Source: Candidatus Solincola jinzensis (GTDB lineage: Bacteria; Actinomycetota; Geothermincolia; Geothermincolales; RBG-13-55-18). From it: a stretch of DNA of 9,887 nt. Within the stretch, counting starts at the first letter, position 1. Each line of letters starts with the position of its first letter. The stretch spans positions 1 through 9,887 of the forward strand of contig JACVJG010000065.1 in the NCBI GenBank assembly GCA_015711875.1, in the 5' to 3' direction. The notes beneath the pieces were generated by a model that worked only from the letters and a program-made list of their open reading frames with translations, was not told where the DNA came from and ran no database searches. This document shows positions 4,769-9,745 of the stretch, piece after piece. The position numbers and the translations under genes were made by a program.

Positions 4769-5231
4769 ACCCTGTCCCCCTCGTCGCACGGGCGGCATCG
4801 AGACCGGCCAATGGACACCAGTATACCCGCGCTCGAGTCGAAAATCCCGTGGAAATCCGCCCATGTCGCGTGAAGGCTGCAACGGCAAGAAGGCGGACAG
4901 GCCGTGAGGTGGAAAAGGCGCAGTGTGTTTTATGGGGCGAGGCGTTAATGGGACATGTCTCACCCGTCGGCTTTATCCGTTCCGGGAAGCCCCGCGCCGG
5001 TTAAGGGCTCGACTCCTCGAACGAGCATTATGGTTAATGGCGCCTGCCTCACGCGCTCTCTGATCCCCTCCGCCTGTGGTCTCCGCGCCTGCGTGATCCT
5101 GTGCCGCCCTGAGCGAGGCGACATGCCGCTAACAAGGCGTCTCGCAGGGCGGACCTCGAGGCAGTCAATTAGCATTGTAAAATGTCATCGCTCTGGATAT
5201 GTTGGGTTCGCGGGCGCGAAAAGGGAGCTTG
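4769..5231. other. Non-coding gap with a long hairpin
   Basis: No ORF here has protein-like character on either strand. The main feature is the long imperfect hairpin at 5104-5152. A smaller stem GCTCG/CGAGC lies at 5007-5026 and a GACATGTC palindrome near 4950-4958. The short AT-rich stretch around 5165-5185 includes TAAAAT (5178-5183), a possible -10 for the PDZ gene, but no -35 was found. I looked for upstream remnants of a serine-protease domain (GNSGGP-like) and saw none. Confidence 0.5.
5104..5152. repeat. Long imperfect inverted repeat (hairpin)
   Basis: Left arm CCGCCCT (5104-5110), a 2-base bulge GA, then GCGAGGCG (5113-5120). Right arm CGTCTCGC (5138-5145), then AGGGCGG (5146-5152). 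That gives 15 pairs including one G-T, with a 17-base loop. No T-run follows on either strand. It lies 79 bases before the PDZ start. It could be a leader structure, a repetitive palindrome or a scar; nothing in the window repeats it. Confidence 0.55.
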
Positions 5232-5540
5232 ATGTGGCGGACCGTCAGGGCGGCCGGGCAGGACGTGTCGCTTAACCGCAGGGTGGTGCGCTACCATGGC
5301 CTATCGGTGGGCAAGGGGTTCCTGGTCACCCACACCGAGCCGGACAGCCCAGCGGCGCGAGCGGGTTTGAGGGAAGGTGATATCATCGTGGCCCTTGACG
5401 GCCGCCCGGTGGCGGGAGTGGACGACCTGCACCGCATGCTCACCGAGGAGCGGATAGGCGTCAGGACCGTCCTGACGGTGATCAAGCGGTCCAGCAAACG
5501 CGAGGTGGAGATAATCCCGGCGGAGAGGAAGGCGGGCTAG
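5232..5540 (+). CDS. Orphan PDZ-domain protein, tail of an HtrA/S1C serine protease
   Basis: A 102-residue protein made almost only of one PDZ domain. VVRYHGL, SVGKGFLV and HTEPDSPAARAGLREGDIIVALDGRPV form the carboxylate-binding and core strands, and VDDLHRMLTEERIG forms the helix. The closing strand is TVLTVIKR. The first residues (AGQDVSLNRRVVRYHG) match the linker that joins protease and PDZ domains in S1C/DegP-like proteases, but the trypsin-like domain is absent. I see no catalytic Ser motif upstream in any frame. ATG 5232 is preferred because AGGGAG ends 4 bases before it; ATG 5199 is in frame without such a site. There is no signal peptide. It is either a remnant still carrying a start by chance or a free peptide-binding module. 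The selenoprotein-like gene starts 58 bases downstream on the same strand. Confidence 0.75.
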   Translation: MWRTVRAAGQDVSLNRRVVRYHGLSVGKGFLVTHTEPDSPAARAGLREGDIIVALDGRPVAGVDDLHRMLTEERIGVRTVLTVIKRSSKREVEIIPAERKAG

Positions 5541-5598
5541 CAGGGAAAGGCGAGCTGGGCGGAAAGGATGACGAAGCGAGCGAAAGAGAGGAGGCGGC

Positions 5599-6231
5599 GT
5601 GCTGGGAAAGAAGGTAGCACTGGTGGCGGGATTGCTGGCAGGTGGGGGAGCCATGGCTTGCGCGTTTACGGCTGTGGGGCGGGAGCCGAGGCTGGGATTG
5701 CACCAATGCGACTGGTCCCTCTACGAGGAGGGCCTTTCCAGGCGCAGCTATCGCAACCTCTCCCATTTCCTCCATCACTTTAAGGAGCTGCTCAGCGTGC
5801 AGGTCCCCGTGGCGGAGATATATCTCGGGAGGGCCATATCCCCGGCCTTCCGAGAGCGCATCATGCTGGTCACCGCTATGGCGAACCAGTGCGCGTGGTG
5901 ACAGTTCGCACATCGGCGGTTCGGTCGGATCGCGGGGATGAGCGAGGAGGAGATGAGGGACCTGGTCACACTGGACCCGGCGAGGTTCGACCCGCGCGAG
6001 CACGCGGCCCTGTGCTGGGTGAGGGAGACGCTGACCCGCCGGGAAGGGGCTACGGACGAGACGTCGAGGCGGTTCGAGGAGGCTTTCGACGAGCGGGAGA
6101 GAAGGCACGTCGTCGCCGCCATGAAGTCGATGTACTTCTTCAACCTGGCCGGCAACACCCTGGACCGCTGGTTGCGCCGGCTCGCGGGGAAGCCGCCGGA
6201 ACCGGCGGTATCATGCTCTCTTGTGCGCTGA
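5599..6231 (+). CDS. AhpD/carboxymuconolactone-decarboxylase-like selenoprotein (in-frame TGA as Sec101)
   Basis: Two open stretches, 5599-5898 and 5902-6231, share one frame and are split only by TGA 5899-5901. Read through, they give 210 residues with C98-A-W-U101-Q-F-A-H105, the CxxC-x3-H motif of AhpD-like disulfide reductases with the second Cys replaced. E86 lies 12 residues before C98, as Glu118 and Cys130 do in mycobacterial AhpD, and H105 matches His137. After the TGA, family-like sequence continues (RFGRIAGMSEEEM, LDPARFDPREHAALCWVRE, MYFFNLAGNTLDRW). The start is GTG 5599, with AGGAGG ending 4 bases upstream. A hydrophobic stretch at 5-26 may anchor or export it. ATG 5938 has no ribosome site, arguing against a second gene. 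A SECIS-like hairpin follows the TGA. Expected role, by inference: thiol-selenol peroxide or disulfide reduction. The alternative is a TGC-to-TGA nonsense mutation; sel genes cannot be checked here. Confidence 0.8.
5911..5932 (+). promoter_or_regulatory. Candidate bacterial SECIS element
   Basis: Upper stem CGGC (5914-5917) pairs with GUCG (5924-5927), closing a 6-base apical loop GGUUCG. The stem continues downwards through U5913 and A5912 with A5929 and U5930, leaving one bulged G. The first loop G (5918) is 16 bases after the TGA, at the near edge of the 16-37 base range I recall for bacterial SECIS hairpins. A G among the first two loop bases is also expected. It lies inside the coding sequence, as bacterial SECIS elements do. 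Short GC-rich hairpins are common here, so this is supportive and not decisive. Confidence 0.5.
6193..6208. repeat. Short perfect hairpin at the 3' end of the AhpD-like gene
   Basis: CCGCCGG-AA-CCGGCGG, inside the last codons of the AhpD-like gene. No T-run follows on either strand, so a terminator role is doubtful. No better terminator is seen in the convergent gap 6232-6370. Confidence 0.35.
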
Positions 6232-6370: not shown

Positions 6371-6550
6371 TCATGGAATGGTGAAGCGGAAGATGGAGCC
6401 TCCGCCCTCACGGTGTTCGTGCCAGATGCGGCCGCCATGTGCCTGCACGATCTCGCGCGCGATGTAGAGGCCCAGGCCTATTCCCTGGGTGGTGTGGCGC
6501 AGCGTGTCCTCGACCTGATGAAAACGCTCGAAGATCAGCTCGCGCTCGCT
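6371..6550 (-). pseudogene. Detached 3' end of the histidine kinase (G2 box of the ATPase domain)
   Basis: The frame that ends at TAA 6553-6551 continues for 59 further codons to TGA 6373-6371. It encodes exactly what the kinase lacks: SERELIFERFHQVED (F box), GIGLGLYIAREIVQAHGG (G2 box) and the closing strand SIFRFTIP. Without a start or ribosome site it is unlikely to be made alone. One base change (for example GAA or GAG to TAA-type stop after GVGVP) would explain the split, so the loss looks recent. A sequencing error is the other option. Confidence 0.85.
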
Positions 6551-8920
6551 TTACGGCACCCCCACACCACGATCCATAACCGAGACGAGGATGCCGCCCT
6601 CGCTTTCCTCGACCGCGATGTCGATCGTCGAACCAGGTGGCGAATGCTCGCAGGCGTTGTCCATGAGGATGACCATCACGCGGTTGATCTTCTCCGCGTC
6701 CAGCAAGCGCGAGGCGGGGGAGCCGGAGAGGCTCAGCTCGAAGCGATAAGCGAGCCATTTCTCCCGCATCTCTTCCACCGAGGCCTCCACGATCTCGACG
6801 ATCGAAGCCTCGCGCTTTTTCAGCTCCAGCCGTCCCCTCTCTATGCGCGAGACGTCCAGCAGTTCCTTTATCAGCGCGTCCATGCGGTCCGCGCCCTCAT
6901 TGACGATGTTTAGGAACTCGCGCCGCTGCTCTTCGTCCAGGCGGTCCCAGTAATCCCTCAGGGTCAGGGTGTATCCCTTCATGAGGGTGATGGGATGCCT
7001 CAGCTCGTGGCTGGCCACGTCCACAAAATCCTTTATGTCCTGTTCAAAGGCCATCCTCTCCTCCTCGATGGAGAGGACGTGGGCGAGGGTGCCCAGGGCG
7101 GCTAGCTCGTCCTCCTCCAGCCCCTCACGCTTGGTGTCCATGATGAAGAGGCAGCCCTTGTTCCTCATCCCCGCTGTCACGGGAAAACCGGCGAAGAACC
7201 TTGGCCGATGCCTCACCGCCAAGGGGGAGGTGTCGACAAAGCCCTCGGAAACCAGGTCCTTGATCACCACGGGTCCCCTGAGGTTATTGGCGATGATGTC
7301 GTAGGCCAGATAGCGCTTCGCGTCCTCGACCGGACGTGGGGTCGTGGAGGTATCCTCGCTGGTGATAAGGAAATACCCGCCGCGCCCCGCGCGCAGATAG
7401 GCCACGAGGTCCGCGCCCAGCATCTCGCGGGCCGTGGTCACCACCCTCTTCATGTTCTCGCTGGCGTCCGCTCCCTGGGCGAGGAAAAGGCGGTTGAGGC
7501 GGGACGCCCTCTCACGCGCCCTTACCTGCTCGTCGATGTCGCGGCCGTTGACCACGATGCCCTGCACGCCCGGATCCTCGAGCATGTTGTAGGCGAGCAC
7601 CTCGAAGTGCCGCCAACCCCCGTCGGCGTAGCGGTAACGGAACTGCAGACGCTCCATCCCGCCCGGATTGAGAAGCAGCCGCTGAAAGGTCCGCATGACC
7701 GTCTGCAGGTCATCGGGATGCACAAAGTCGAAGGCGTTGCGCTGCAGGAAATAGCCGCGCTCGTACCCCAGCACTTTCTGCACCGAGGGGCTCTCATAGG
7801 TCACTTTGCCTTCACGGTCGATGATGACTATGACATCAAGGGCGTTCTCGATCAGGGACCGGAAGCGCTCTTCGCTGCGTTCCAGCCTGTCCAGCATGGT
7901 GTTGATGGAGGAAGCCAGGCTTGAGATCTCGTCCTTTCCCTGCGAGCGCACGCGGGCGGCAGCGTCCGCGGTCCTGCCTATCTCGGTGACCTCGGCATTG
8001 AGTCTTGAGAGGCGGGAGAGCACCATCCTCTCGACGATCAGGAACATGCCGGCGCCGAAGAGGAGGAAAGCGGCGAAGAGGAAGAGCACATACCAGATGA
8101 GGGTGTTGACTCCCTGGTCGTGGATGTTGCGCGGCAACTCGACCTTCAAGATGAGCGCCGGCTCTCCCAAGACATCCTCTATGAACGTATAGCCCGATAC
8201 GCGGCCAGGCGTGGACGAGAGCACCACCATCTCCTCCCCCTCCATCAGCTTCGCGCGGGCTTTGGTGAAGTCCGGCGGTAGACTCTCCCCGTAAACCGCG
8301 GCGATATCCAGGTCCTGGTGGCTCGCCTCGGCAAGTCGGTTTATCTCTTCCTCGTCGAGCAGGCGCCCCATGACCAGGGTGCCGCGGGCCGGCCCCTCGG
8401 CGGCGCTGGTGAGGATGGGCTCCGCCGCGAAAAGGAGTTGCCCTTCATCAAGTTGCAGCACCCCTGCCGTCGATCTAACCCCCGATTCGCCACGCAGTAC
8501 GTCGAGCGCGGGAATGAGCTTGGGAAGAAAGTCGGAAAAGAGAGGCAAAAGGCCGTGGCTCGTGGGGTCGAATCGGCGGCCGCAAACCAGGTTACTCTCC
8601 GTGTCCAGGAACGCGATGACATCGAGACGCAGGTTCTCGAACATAAACGGGGTGAGATTGGAGGTTACGAAAGACTCGTTGCGCTCTTTCATGAAAACAT
8701 ATGAATCGTCCCAGTAAGCCCAGTCCTTGAGCACGGTGTCCAGGTTCTGCAGGTCGTCGTCGAATATGTTCCTGGCGCGAAGCACCTCCATGGCGACGTT
8801 GTCCCGCTCCAGGTGACGGAAACTCCCCAGGATGTAAAGCCAGGAAAAGACGTTCAGGGTGATCAGGAGGGTAAGGAATATCCCCAGGAATATCATGGCC
8901 GTCTTCCTGCGCAGAGACAA
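6551..8920 (-). CDS. Membrane sensor histidine kinase (CHASE4-HAMP-PAS-GAF-HisKA), C-terminally truncated
   Basis: A 789-residue two-component sensor. TM1 is about 8-31. The extracytoplasmic sensor at about 40-265 contains LDTVLKDWAYWDDSYVF, typical of CHASE4. TM2 is about 273-296, with a HAMP linker to about 345 and PAS at about 351-465 (ENALDVIVIIDREGKVTY, FVHPDDL). A GAF-like domain follows at about 475-625, then HisKA with phospho-acceptor H638 in ASHELRHP. The ATPase domain begins with N755 in MDNACEHSPPGS and G1 DRGVGVP, then stops at TAA before the F and G2 boxes. As written it should not bind ATP normally, so kinase activity is doubtful. The start is TTG 8920, with AGGAGG 7 bases upstream on the minus strand. 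No response regulator gene is adjacent. A TATAAT -10 and direct repeats lie upstream (9038-9079). The gene converges on the AhpD-like gene. Confidence 0.92.
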   Translation of the reverse strand: MSLRRKTAMIFLGIFLTLLITLNVFSWLYILGSFRHLERDNVAMEVLRARNIFDDDLQNLDTVLKDWAYWDDSYVFMKERNESFVTSNLTPFMFENLRLDVIAFLDTESNLVCGRRFDPTSHGLLPLFSDFLPKLIPALDVLRGESGVRSTAGVLQLDEGQLLFAAEPILTSAAEGPARGTLVMGRLLDEEEINRLAEASHQDLDIAAVYGESLPPDFTKARAKLMEGEEMVVLSSTPGRVSGYTFIEDVLGEPALILKVELPRNIHDQGVNTLIWYVLFLFAAFLLFGAGMFLIVERMVLSRLSRLNAEVTEIGRTADAAARVRSQGKDEISSLASSINTMLDRLERSEERFRSLIENALDVIVIIDREGKVTYESPSVQKVLGYERGYFLQRNAFDFVHPDDLQTVMRTFQRLLLNPGGMERLQFRYRYADGGWRHFEVLAYNMLEDPGVQGIVVNGRDIDEQVRARERASRLNRLFLAQGADASENMKRVVTTAREMLGADLVAYLRAGRGGYFLITSEDTSTTPRPVEDAKRYLAYDIIANNLRGPVVIKDLVSEGFVDTSPLAVRHRPRFFAGFPVTAGMRNKGCLFIMDTKREGLEEDELAALGTLAHVLSIEEERMAFEQDIKDFVDVASHELRHPITLMKGYTLTLRDYWDRLDEEQRREFLNIVNEGADRMDALIKELLDVSRIERGRLELKKREASIVEIVEASVEEMREKWLAYRFELSLSGSPASRLLDAEKINRVMVILMDNACEHSPPGSTIDIAVEESEGGILVSVMDRGVGVP

Positions 8921-9355: not shown

Positions 9356-9745
9356 CTATAGCGGGACGCTCATTTCTTTCACTGGCCCAGCGCCGGCAAG
9401 GAGGTATTCGGCCGCTTTTAAGCCGCTGAGCATGGCGGAGGGAACGCCGCCCATGGCGAGCGCGGAGAAGGCCTGGTAACCGGCCATGAACAAGCCGGCG
9501 ATGGGGGTGCGGACCAACTCCACCACCTCGCCGCCCGCCCGCTCCCAGGACCAGCCCGCCACCGCGCCGTCGGGTCGTCCCGACTGCGGAGCCGTTTGCA
9601 CGCGTTTCATCCAGGCGGTCTCGGGTTCCGAGTCGATCCGGGAGCCGGTGTTCAACCGGTGCCGGGACCGGTGTCGGTCCGGCGACCTCCGGTTTTCGGT
9701 ATGCGCATGGAAGGCGCGGGACATGGGCGACGTCACGGCCTGCAT
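9356..9745 (-). pseudogene. C-terminal remnant of an FAD-dependent oxidoreductase (phytoene-desaturase/amine-oxidase type)
   Basis: The minus-strand frame of 129 codons ends with a clear flavoprotein C-terminus. RPDGAVAGW and VELVRTPIAGLFMAGYQAF are followed by GGVPSAMLSGLKAAEYLLAG, the last FAD-contacting segment of phytoene-dehydrogenase-like NAD(P)/FAD oxidoreductases. Protein-like character begins at about residue 43 (ETAWMKRVQ); residues 1-40 (SPDRHRSRHR...) are encoded by repetitive CCGG-rich DNA and look non-authentic. The N-terminal dinucleotide-binding GxGxxG half, normally about 400 residues, is missing. No matching sequence appears in the other frames up to 9780. It is most likely a 5'-deleted gene remnant. 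ATG 9745 exists with a weak AAGG site, so a short product cannot be fully excluded. It lies just downstream of the unrecognised gene on the same strand. Confidence 0.7.
9638..9694. repeat. CCGG-rich direct and inverted repeats at the remnant's 5' edge
   Basis: An imperfect direct repeat, CCGGGAGCCGGTGT (9638-9651) and CCGGGACCGGTGT (9662-9674), overlaps a hairpin GCCGGGACC (9661-9669) with GGTCCGGC (9676-9683). The outer ends AACCGG (9654-9659) and CCGGTT (9689-9694) are also inverted. It lies where the FAD-enzyme homology fades, so it may mark the deletion junction. Confidence 0.45.

Follow-up and report, generated by a model that had tools for sequence, protein, structure and literature searches.

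A stretch of 9,887 nucleotides from Candidatus Solincola jinzensis (contig JACVJG010000065.1; the whole stretch is termed the window) contains a gene that very probably encodes a real CxxU selenoprotein of the AhpD/carboxymuconolactone-decarboxylase (CMD) superfamily, with TGA 5899-5901 read as selenocysteine (Sec). A preliminary description, made from the letters of the window, had taken the gene for a CxxU enzyme in which this TGA replaces the second cysteine of AhpD. That reading is backed by a mixture of Cys and Sec codons at the site, by the selenocysteine machinery of the relatives, and by a hairpin resembling a selenocysteine insertion sequence (SECIS) element.

An AhpD-like gene interrupted by an in-frame TGA

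Translation gives a single frame running from GTG 5599 to the stop at 6229-6231 that is open apart from TGA 5899-5901, with 100 residues upstream of that codon and 109 downstream. This upholds the initial claim of two same-frame open reading frames (ORFs) divided solely by the TGA. The readthrough product carries the motif C98-A-W-U101-Q-F-A-H105, with E86 twelve residues ahead of C98 (E86-x11-C98), just as had been stated. Ordinary ORF calling splits genes of this kind in two. Annotation had been expected to produce two false short genes, and a JGI 109-aa 'hypothetical protein' (P0004, a protein record only) corresponds to the post-TGA half begun at the equivalent internal ATG. The members of the branch returned by the protein search were two full-length Cys forms and one 109-residue post-TGA piece, the latter named 'hypothetical protein'.

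Selenocysteine and cysteine alternate among the relatives

The genus Candidatus Solincola is placed in the class Candidatus Geothermincolia in the NCBI taxonomy. A search for homologs through 31 genomes of the class that includes G001 turned up 11 more genes, spread over 10 genomes. Nine have TGA at the position of residue 101 and two have Cys (L021 with TGT and L028 with TGC), and no other codon occurs. With the window gene included, the count across the 12 genes is 10 TGA, 2 Cys and 0 other. The check for a Cys/Sec mixture proposed in the preliminary description thus found one. The TGA form is spread over eight relatives' genomes, of which G010 carries a second copy (L031). Among the four closest relatives with named records, all metagenome-assembled genomes of Actinomycetota, three have TGA and Candidatus Solincola daggyaiensis has TGT. 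A search of 396 sampled genomes of the phylum at E values up to 1e-20, with at most seven candidates scored in each genome, returned the same 10 genomes and none beyond. A tblastn search of plasmids gave a single distant match of 28.9% identity.

In a midpoint-rooted tree of 19 rows the selenoprotein set forms one group with support of 100/100, and the Sec/Cys label requires three changes. The Cys gene L021 pairs with L022 (83/90) inside a set that includes the window gene (80/91); neither node is starred. This placement suggests a change from Sec to Cys at L021.

The second copy in G010 (L031, 1414-2010, plus strand) has an extra in-frame TGA at a Gly position, lacks an ordinary start codon and has an altered loop. 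It is probably decayed or decaying. Because of that appearance it was omitted from the 11-row alignment A2, from the tree, from the nine-gene test of synonymous identity and from the count of C-terminal cysteines.

The selenocysteine machinery

We assessed the sel genes in the genomes of the relatives. selB exceeds its cut-off in 27 of the 31 class genomes, and tRNA-Sec does so in 26. The preliminary description had proposed a search for selA, selB, selC and selD; selA, selB, tRNA-Sec and selD are all over cut-off in each of the eight relatives' genomes that have the TGA form. The four tRNA-Sec loci tried with ARAGORN (G001-G004) all have the anticodon TCA. There is an in-frame TGA inside selD itself in eight of nine genomes, a sign from within these genomes that UGA is decoded as Sec. 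G002, with the Cys form, also has all four components over cut-off. The other genome with the Cys form, G019, gave no match to selA, no selB at 1e-70, no tRNA-Sec at 1e-12, and only relatives of selD below the cut-off. The completeness of the G019 assembly is unstated, and in other genomes the sel genes share one contig, so a single assembly gap could remove all of them.

The Rfam tRNA-Sec model, with a gathering score of 47, gives 65 bits to an apparent second tRNA-Sec in G001 (L009, 1497-1590, minus strand). We rejected it as such since ARAGORN calls it tRNA-Cys (gca); it is perhaps an unusual tRNA-Cys.

A putative SECIS element

Bacterial SECIS elements are stem-loops located soon after the TGA, with a G in the apical loop. 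The window gene has a hairpin after the TGA, and there is a G in its apical loop. The 47 nucleotides from the TGA fold with -17.7 kcal/mol (z = -2.00), and five of 200 shuffled sequences were at least as good. In unconstrained folds the hairpin is present in the window gene, L022, L024 and L025, and in L026 with a five-base loop.

The choice of synonymous codons is more telling. The codons TTC-GGT-CGG are identical in nine of the 10 TGA genes and in neither of the two Cys genes. Across 57 reference ORFs taken from the window and the G001-G004 loci, GGT makes up 9.2% of the Gly codons and CGG 17.2% of the Arg codons. Of 96 six-codon segments compared among the nine TGA genes, the one from +5 to +10 ranks first in synonymous identity (0.90 against a median of 0.56, kinship being ignored), and the next three all overlap it. 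When the loop is imposed, 85% and 37% of 1000 synonymous recodings of the two Cys genes fold as well as the natural sequence, and 71% of those of L031. The earlier proposal to look for a bacterial SECIS downstream of the TGA thus yielded a SECIS-like hairpin for which the support from energy appears moderate and that from synonymous codon conservation strong. Rfam gave no match in the window at the gathering threshold, its coverage of bacterial SECIS elements being unchecked.

The selD loci served as a control for the SECIS pattern, which picked up seven of eight, all except L050. In L049 and L051-L056 a GUAAK motif precedes a hairpin of the GGTCC type, which begins at position 16 when counting from the T of TGA. 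This loop differs, so the selD loci were set aside as confirmation of the GGUC loop.

Selection on the reading frame

Ratios of nonsynonymous to synonymous substitution (dN/dS) were calculated by the method of Nei and Gojobori, the downstream part being taken after the stem-loop region. For the window gene against L022 the values are 0.41 before the TGA and 0.23 downstream, and against L021 0.37 and 0.27. Comparison with L023, L024 and L025 gave 0.14-0.27 before the TGA and 0.35-0.37 downstream. Across the nine pairs tried the post-TGA values range from 0.23 to 0.48, some of them with dS (synonymous divergence) near saturation.

Family, fold and protein features

With U replaced by C, PF02627 (CMD) matches residues 74-142, a region that spans the TGA, at 37.1 bits (cut-off 23). 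PDB sequence matches are led by PA0269/AhpD of Pseudomonas aeruginosa (1.3e-8 and 1.7e-8), whose Glu, CxxC and His align with the corresponding residues of the window protein, and the AlphaFold model of the window protein is an all-helical AhpD fold. The constellation of E86, C98, Sec or Cys101 and H105 is complete in all 11 rows of A2. The window protein exceeds no NCBIfam cut-off: TIGR00778 (ahpD_dom) lies just below, with 27.6 against 27.8 bits, and in scans of P0001 and P0002 TIGR01926 reaches 21.8 against 81.8 bits, NF053654 (described as '(seleno)protein') 14.2 against 310 bits, and NF041047 and NF041238 give no match at E values up to 1.

The N-terminal hydrophobic segment that had been pointed out has a similar counterpart in every row of A2, in keeping with the suggestion of a membrane-associated or exported protein. 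AlphaFold places a helix at residues 2-24, with block confidence (pLDDT) of 69 and 67 across residues 1-20. We dismissed a lipoprotein signal because the cysteine near the end of this helix varies among the rows of A2. The C-terminal residues 205-210 have pLDDT under 50.

Table 1. Positions in the window of the selenoprotein gene, its elements and the upstream remnant
Feature	Positions	Strand	Remarks
AhpD/CMD-like CxxU selenoprotein gene	5599..6231	+	210 residues, Sec101, stop TGA 6229-6231; translation with TGA = U, PF02627, same architecture in relatives
AGGAGG, putative ribosome-binding site	5589..5594	+	4 nt 5' of GTG 5599; read from sequence
N-terminal hydrophobic segment, codons 6-22	5614..5664	+	mean Kyte-Doolittle value 1.96 over 17 residues; net charge +2 ahead of the segment
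Glu86, putative proton-relay residue	5854..5856	+	invariant in 11/11 rows of A2
Cys98, first residue of CxxU	5890..5892	+	invariant in A2
TGA, read as selenocysteine 101	5899..5901	+	TGA or Cys in 12/12 genes
Putative bacterial SECIS stem-loop	5906..5945	+	upper hairpin 5916-5933, apical loop GGUC 5923-5926; fold energy, synonymous codons TTC GGT CGG
His105, putative proton-relay residue	5911..5913	+	invariant in A2
Cys206, C-terminal tail	6214..6216	+	Cys among the last six residues in 10/11 rows of A2
ORF with C-terminal PDZ remnant of HtrA-like trypsin/PDZ protease	5199..5540	+	homology from about 5244

Neighbouring genes

Four relatives (L002, L003, L004 and L043) have a whole HtrA-like protease directly upstream of the gene for the selenoprotein. 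In the window only its last 96-98 residues, the PDZ part, find a match; with the proteins of L002, L003 and L043 as queries, the trypsin part has none. The protease has no match in L001, and no ORF of five more distant loci (L044-L048) falls into the protease cluster. With the adjacency kept in four relatives only and a remnant in the window, we rejected operon conservation as evidence on function. Nor is the protease informative on whether the selenoprotein is extracellular, since by eye it has no obvious N-terminal membrane segment. Pfam scans of 17 neighbour proteins (7 + 10) found no peroxiredoxin.

On the minus strand, a histidine kinase with CHASE4, HAMP, PAS and GAF domains (6374-8920) has an in-frame TAA at 6551-6553 inside HATPase_c. 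Its frame continues beyond the TAA to 6374 and is homologous there to the full-length 849-residue kinases of L001 and L002, so the TAA would be a nonsense change or a sequence error. At 9362-9586 (minus strand) only a C-terminal stretch of 78 residues of a FAD/amine-oxidase-like protein of 534-581 residues is matched, with no match to the remainder up to the end of the window. Together with the HtrA remnant these features point to local gene decay or to a misjoined contig. The Fe-S protein is 92% identical to that of L001, and the kinase is 80% identical to that of L002. Such matches, added to those of the selenoprotein gene, make an origin of the window in the class Candidatus Geothermincolia most likely.

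Alternative explanations

Several observations weigh against a functional selenoprotein. The support from sel genes comes from relatives and not from the window organism's own genome, and G002 has Cys at the site despite keeping the machinery. The hairpin energy is not extreme, with z only -2.0. The hairpin is absent from the unconstrained folds of L023, L027, L029, L030 and L031, and when each of the nine TGA genes apart from L031 is recoded synonymously 1000 times with the loop imposed, 3% to 22% of the recodings fold equally well. The damaged neighbours make local decay or misassembly a real concern, and together with the decayed look of the paralog L031 they would favor a dead or misread gene, in which TGA has replaced a Cys codon through mutation or sequencing error. 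We consider this highly improbable. The same codon is TGA in eight other genomes, the site holds only TGA, TGT or TGC, and synonymous codons are conserved locally in a manner explicable by an RNA element. Post-TGA dN/dS for the window gene against five relatives (0.23-0.37) also argues against it, although a very recent death would be compatible with these values. Indeed the decayed-looking L031 against L027 still gives 0.28, with dS near saturation; the measure therefore shows long-term constraint and cannot exclude the recent death of one copy.

Two further possibilities concern how the UGA is used. UGA can halt translation when selenium is low, and could act as a regulatory switch if the truncated product of 100 residues were functional without selenium. 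That product would lack residue 101 and His105, and dN/dS is comparable in the two halves, the larger value falling on the pre-TGA half with L022 and L021 and on the post-TGA half with L023-L025; such a switch seems even more improbable than a dead gene. Decoding as Trp or another amino acid, through a changed code or near-cognate readthrough, would account for the open and conserved frame after the TGA. Yet TGA is an ordinary stop here, since it terminates five of six further forward genes that we checked in the window; two relatives have Cys at the site and none has Trp, and the relatives carry sel genes. We regard this as the least credible explanation.

A possible mechanism

As comparison of the relatives supports, UGA 5899-5901 is very probably decoded as selenocysteine by SelB and tRNA-Sec under the direction of the downstream stem-loop, and Sec101 then occupies the position that the second Cys of CxxC has in AhpD. 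Most likely the protein would reduce peroxides or disulfides while its N-terminal helix keeps it at the membrane. Sec would attack the substrate, whereupon Cys98 would form a selenenylsulfide, to be resolved by an outside reductant, perhaps via the flexible C-terminal Cys. From the conserved pattern, Glu86 and His105 may tune the proton transfers of Sec101 as they do in AhpD. We give peroxide reduction an even chance of being the main reaction. A selenoprotein with another reaction, such as one that reductively strips an organic substrate of a leaving group or exchanges disulfides with a partner protein, is compatible with the selenocysteine assignment and is a lesser but appreciable possibility; against it, PA0269/AhpD of P. 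aeruginosa comes closest both in sequence and in fold, and Bmp8 is just 11-12% identical over the fold alignment. It should be said against our proposal that peroxidase activity, membrane location and the role of the tail Cys are all inferred.

Comparison with known AhpD-like selenoproteins

AhpD-like selenoproteins had been said to be known from metagenomes, and the excerpts of the literature on which we draw bear this out. There were 27 AhpD-like and four CMD-domain CxxU selenoproteins in the Sargasso Sea (PMC1088965), and the AhpD-like 2 family of the Global Ocean Sampling set (PF02627, CxxU) has 70 sequences and was commoner in non-marine samples (PMC2398784). 'AhpD-like (COG2128)' and 'distant AhpD homolog' selenoproteins are given, two each, in PMC1794560, and a 2026 review lists several CxxU AhpD-type selenoprotein families with the models TIGR01926, NF041047 and NF041238 (PMC13188914). 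Among the open-licence papers listed by our searches we found no report of the present branch, as judged by titles and the openings of abstracts.

The branch is easily overlooked by standard annotation, and illustrates well how a selenoprotein gene can stay hidden. Its TGA and Cys genes constitute a small natural experiment on the joint loss of Sec and SECIS codons, and the gene set could seed an annotation model. More tentatively, the gene may represent an architecture seen so far only in genomes of the Candidatus Geothermincolia type: an AhpD fold anchored in the membrane that has Cys98, Sec101 and a C-terminal tail Cys as its three redox centres, the last of them passing electrons to or from the CxxU pair, and one branch that exchanged Sec for Cys and lost the SECIS codons with it. 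We think this less likely than not.

In Mycobacterium tuberculosis AhpD (1gu9, 1knc) the motif, which we take to be CxxC, differs from the CxxU of the window protein, and the two are 8% identical over the fold alignment. PA0269 'AhpD' (7xw1, 2ijc, 2o4d) has Cys where the window protein has Sec; its solved chains comprise 145-165 residues, and the fold match to the window protein begins at residue 52. The Global Ocean Sampling AhpD-like 2 and Sargasso CMD selenoproteins, compared by description only, share with it the PF02627/CMD domain, Sec as the second residue of CxxU, Cys homologs and downstream SECIS-like elements. Unlike the window protein, they are described in those excerpts with no mention of the N-terminal hydrophobic segment, the C-terminal Cys tail or this lineage. 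CxxU AhpD-like proteins are thus a known kind. The window gene belongs to it as a member restricted to its lineage, with a hydrophobic helix at the N terminus and a Cys conserved at the C terminus.
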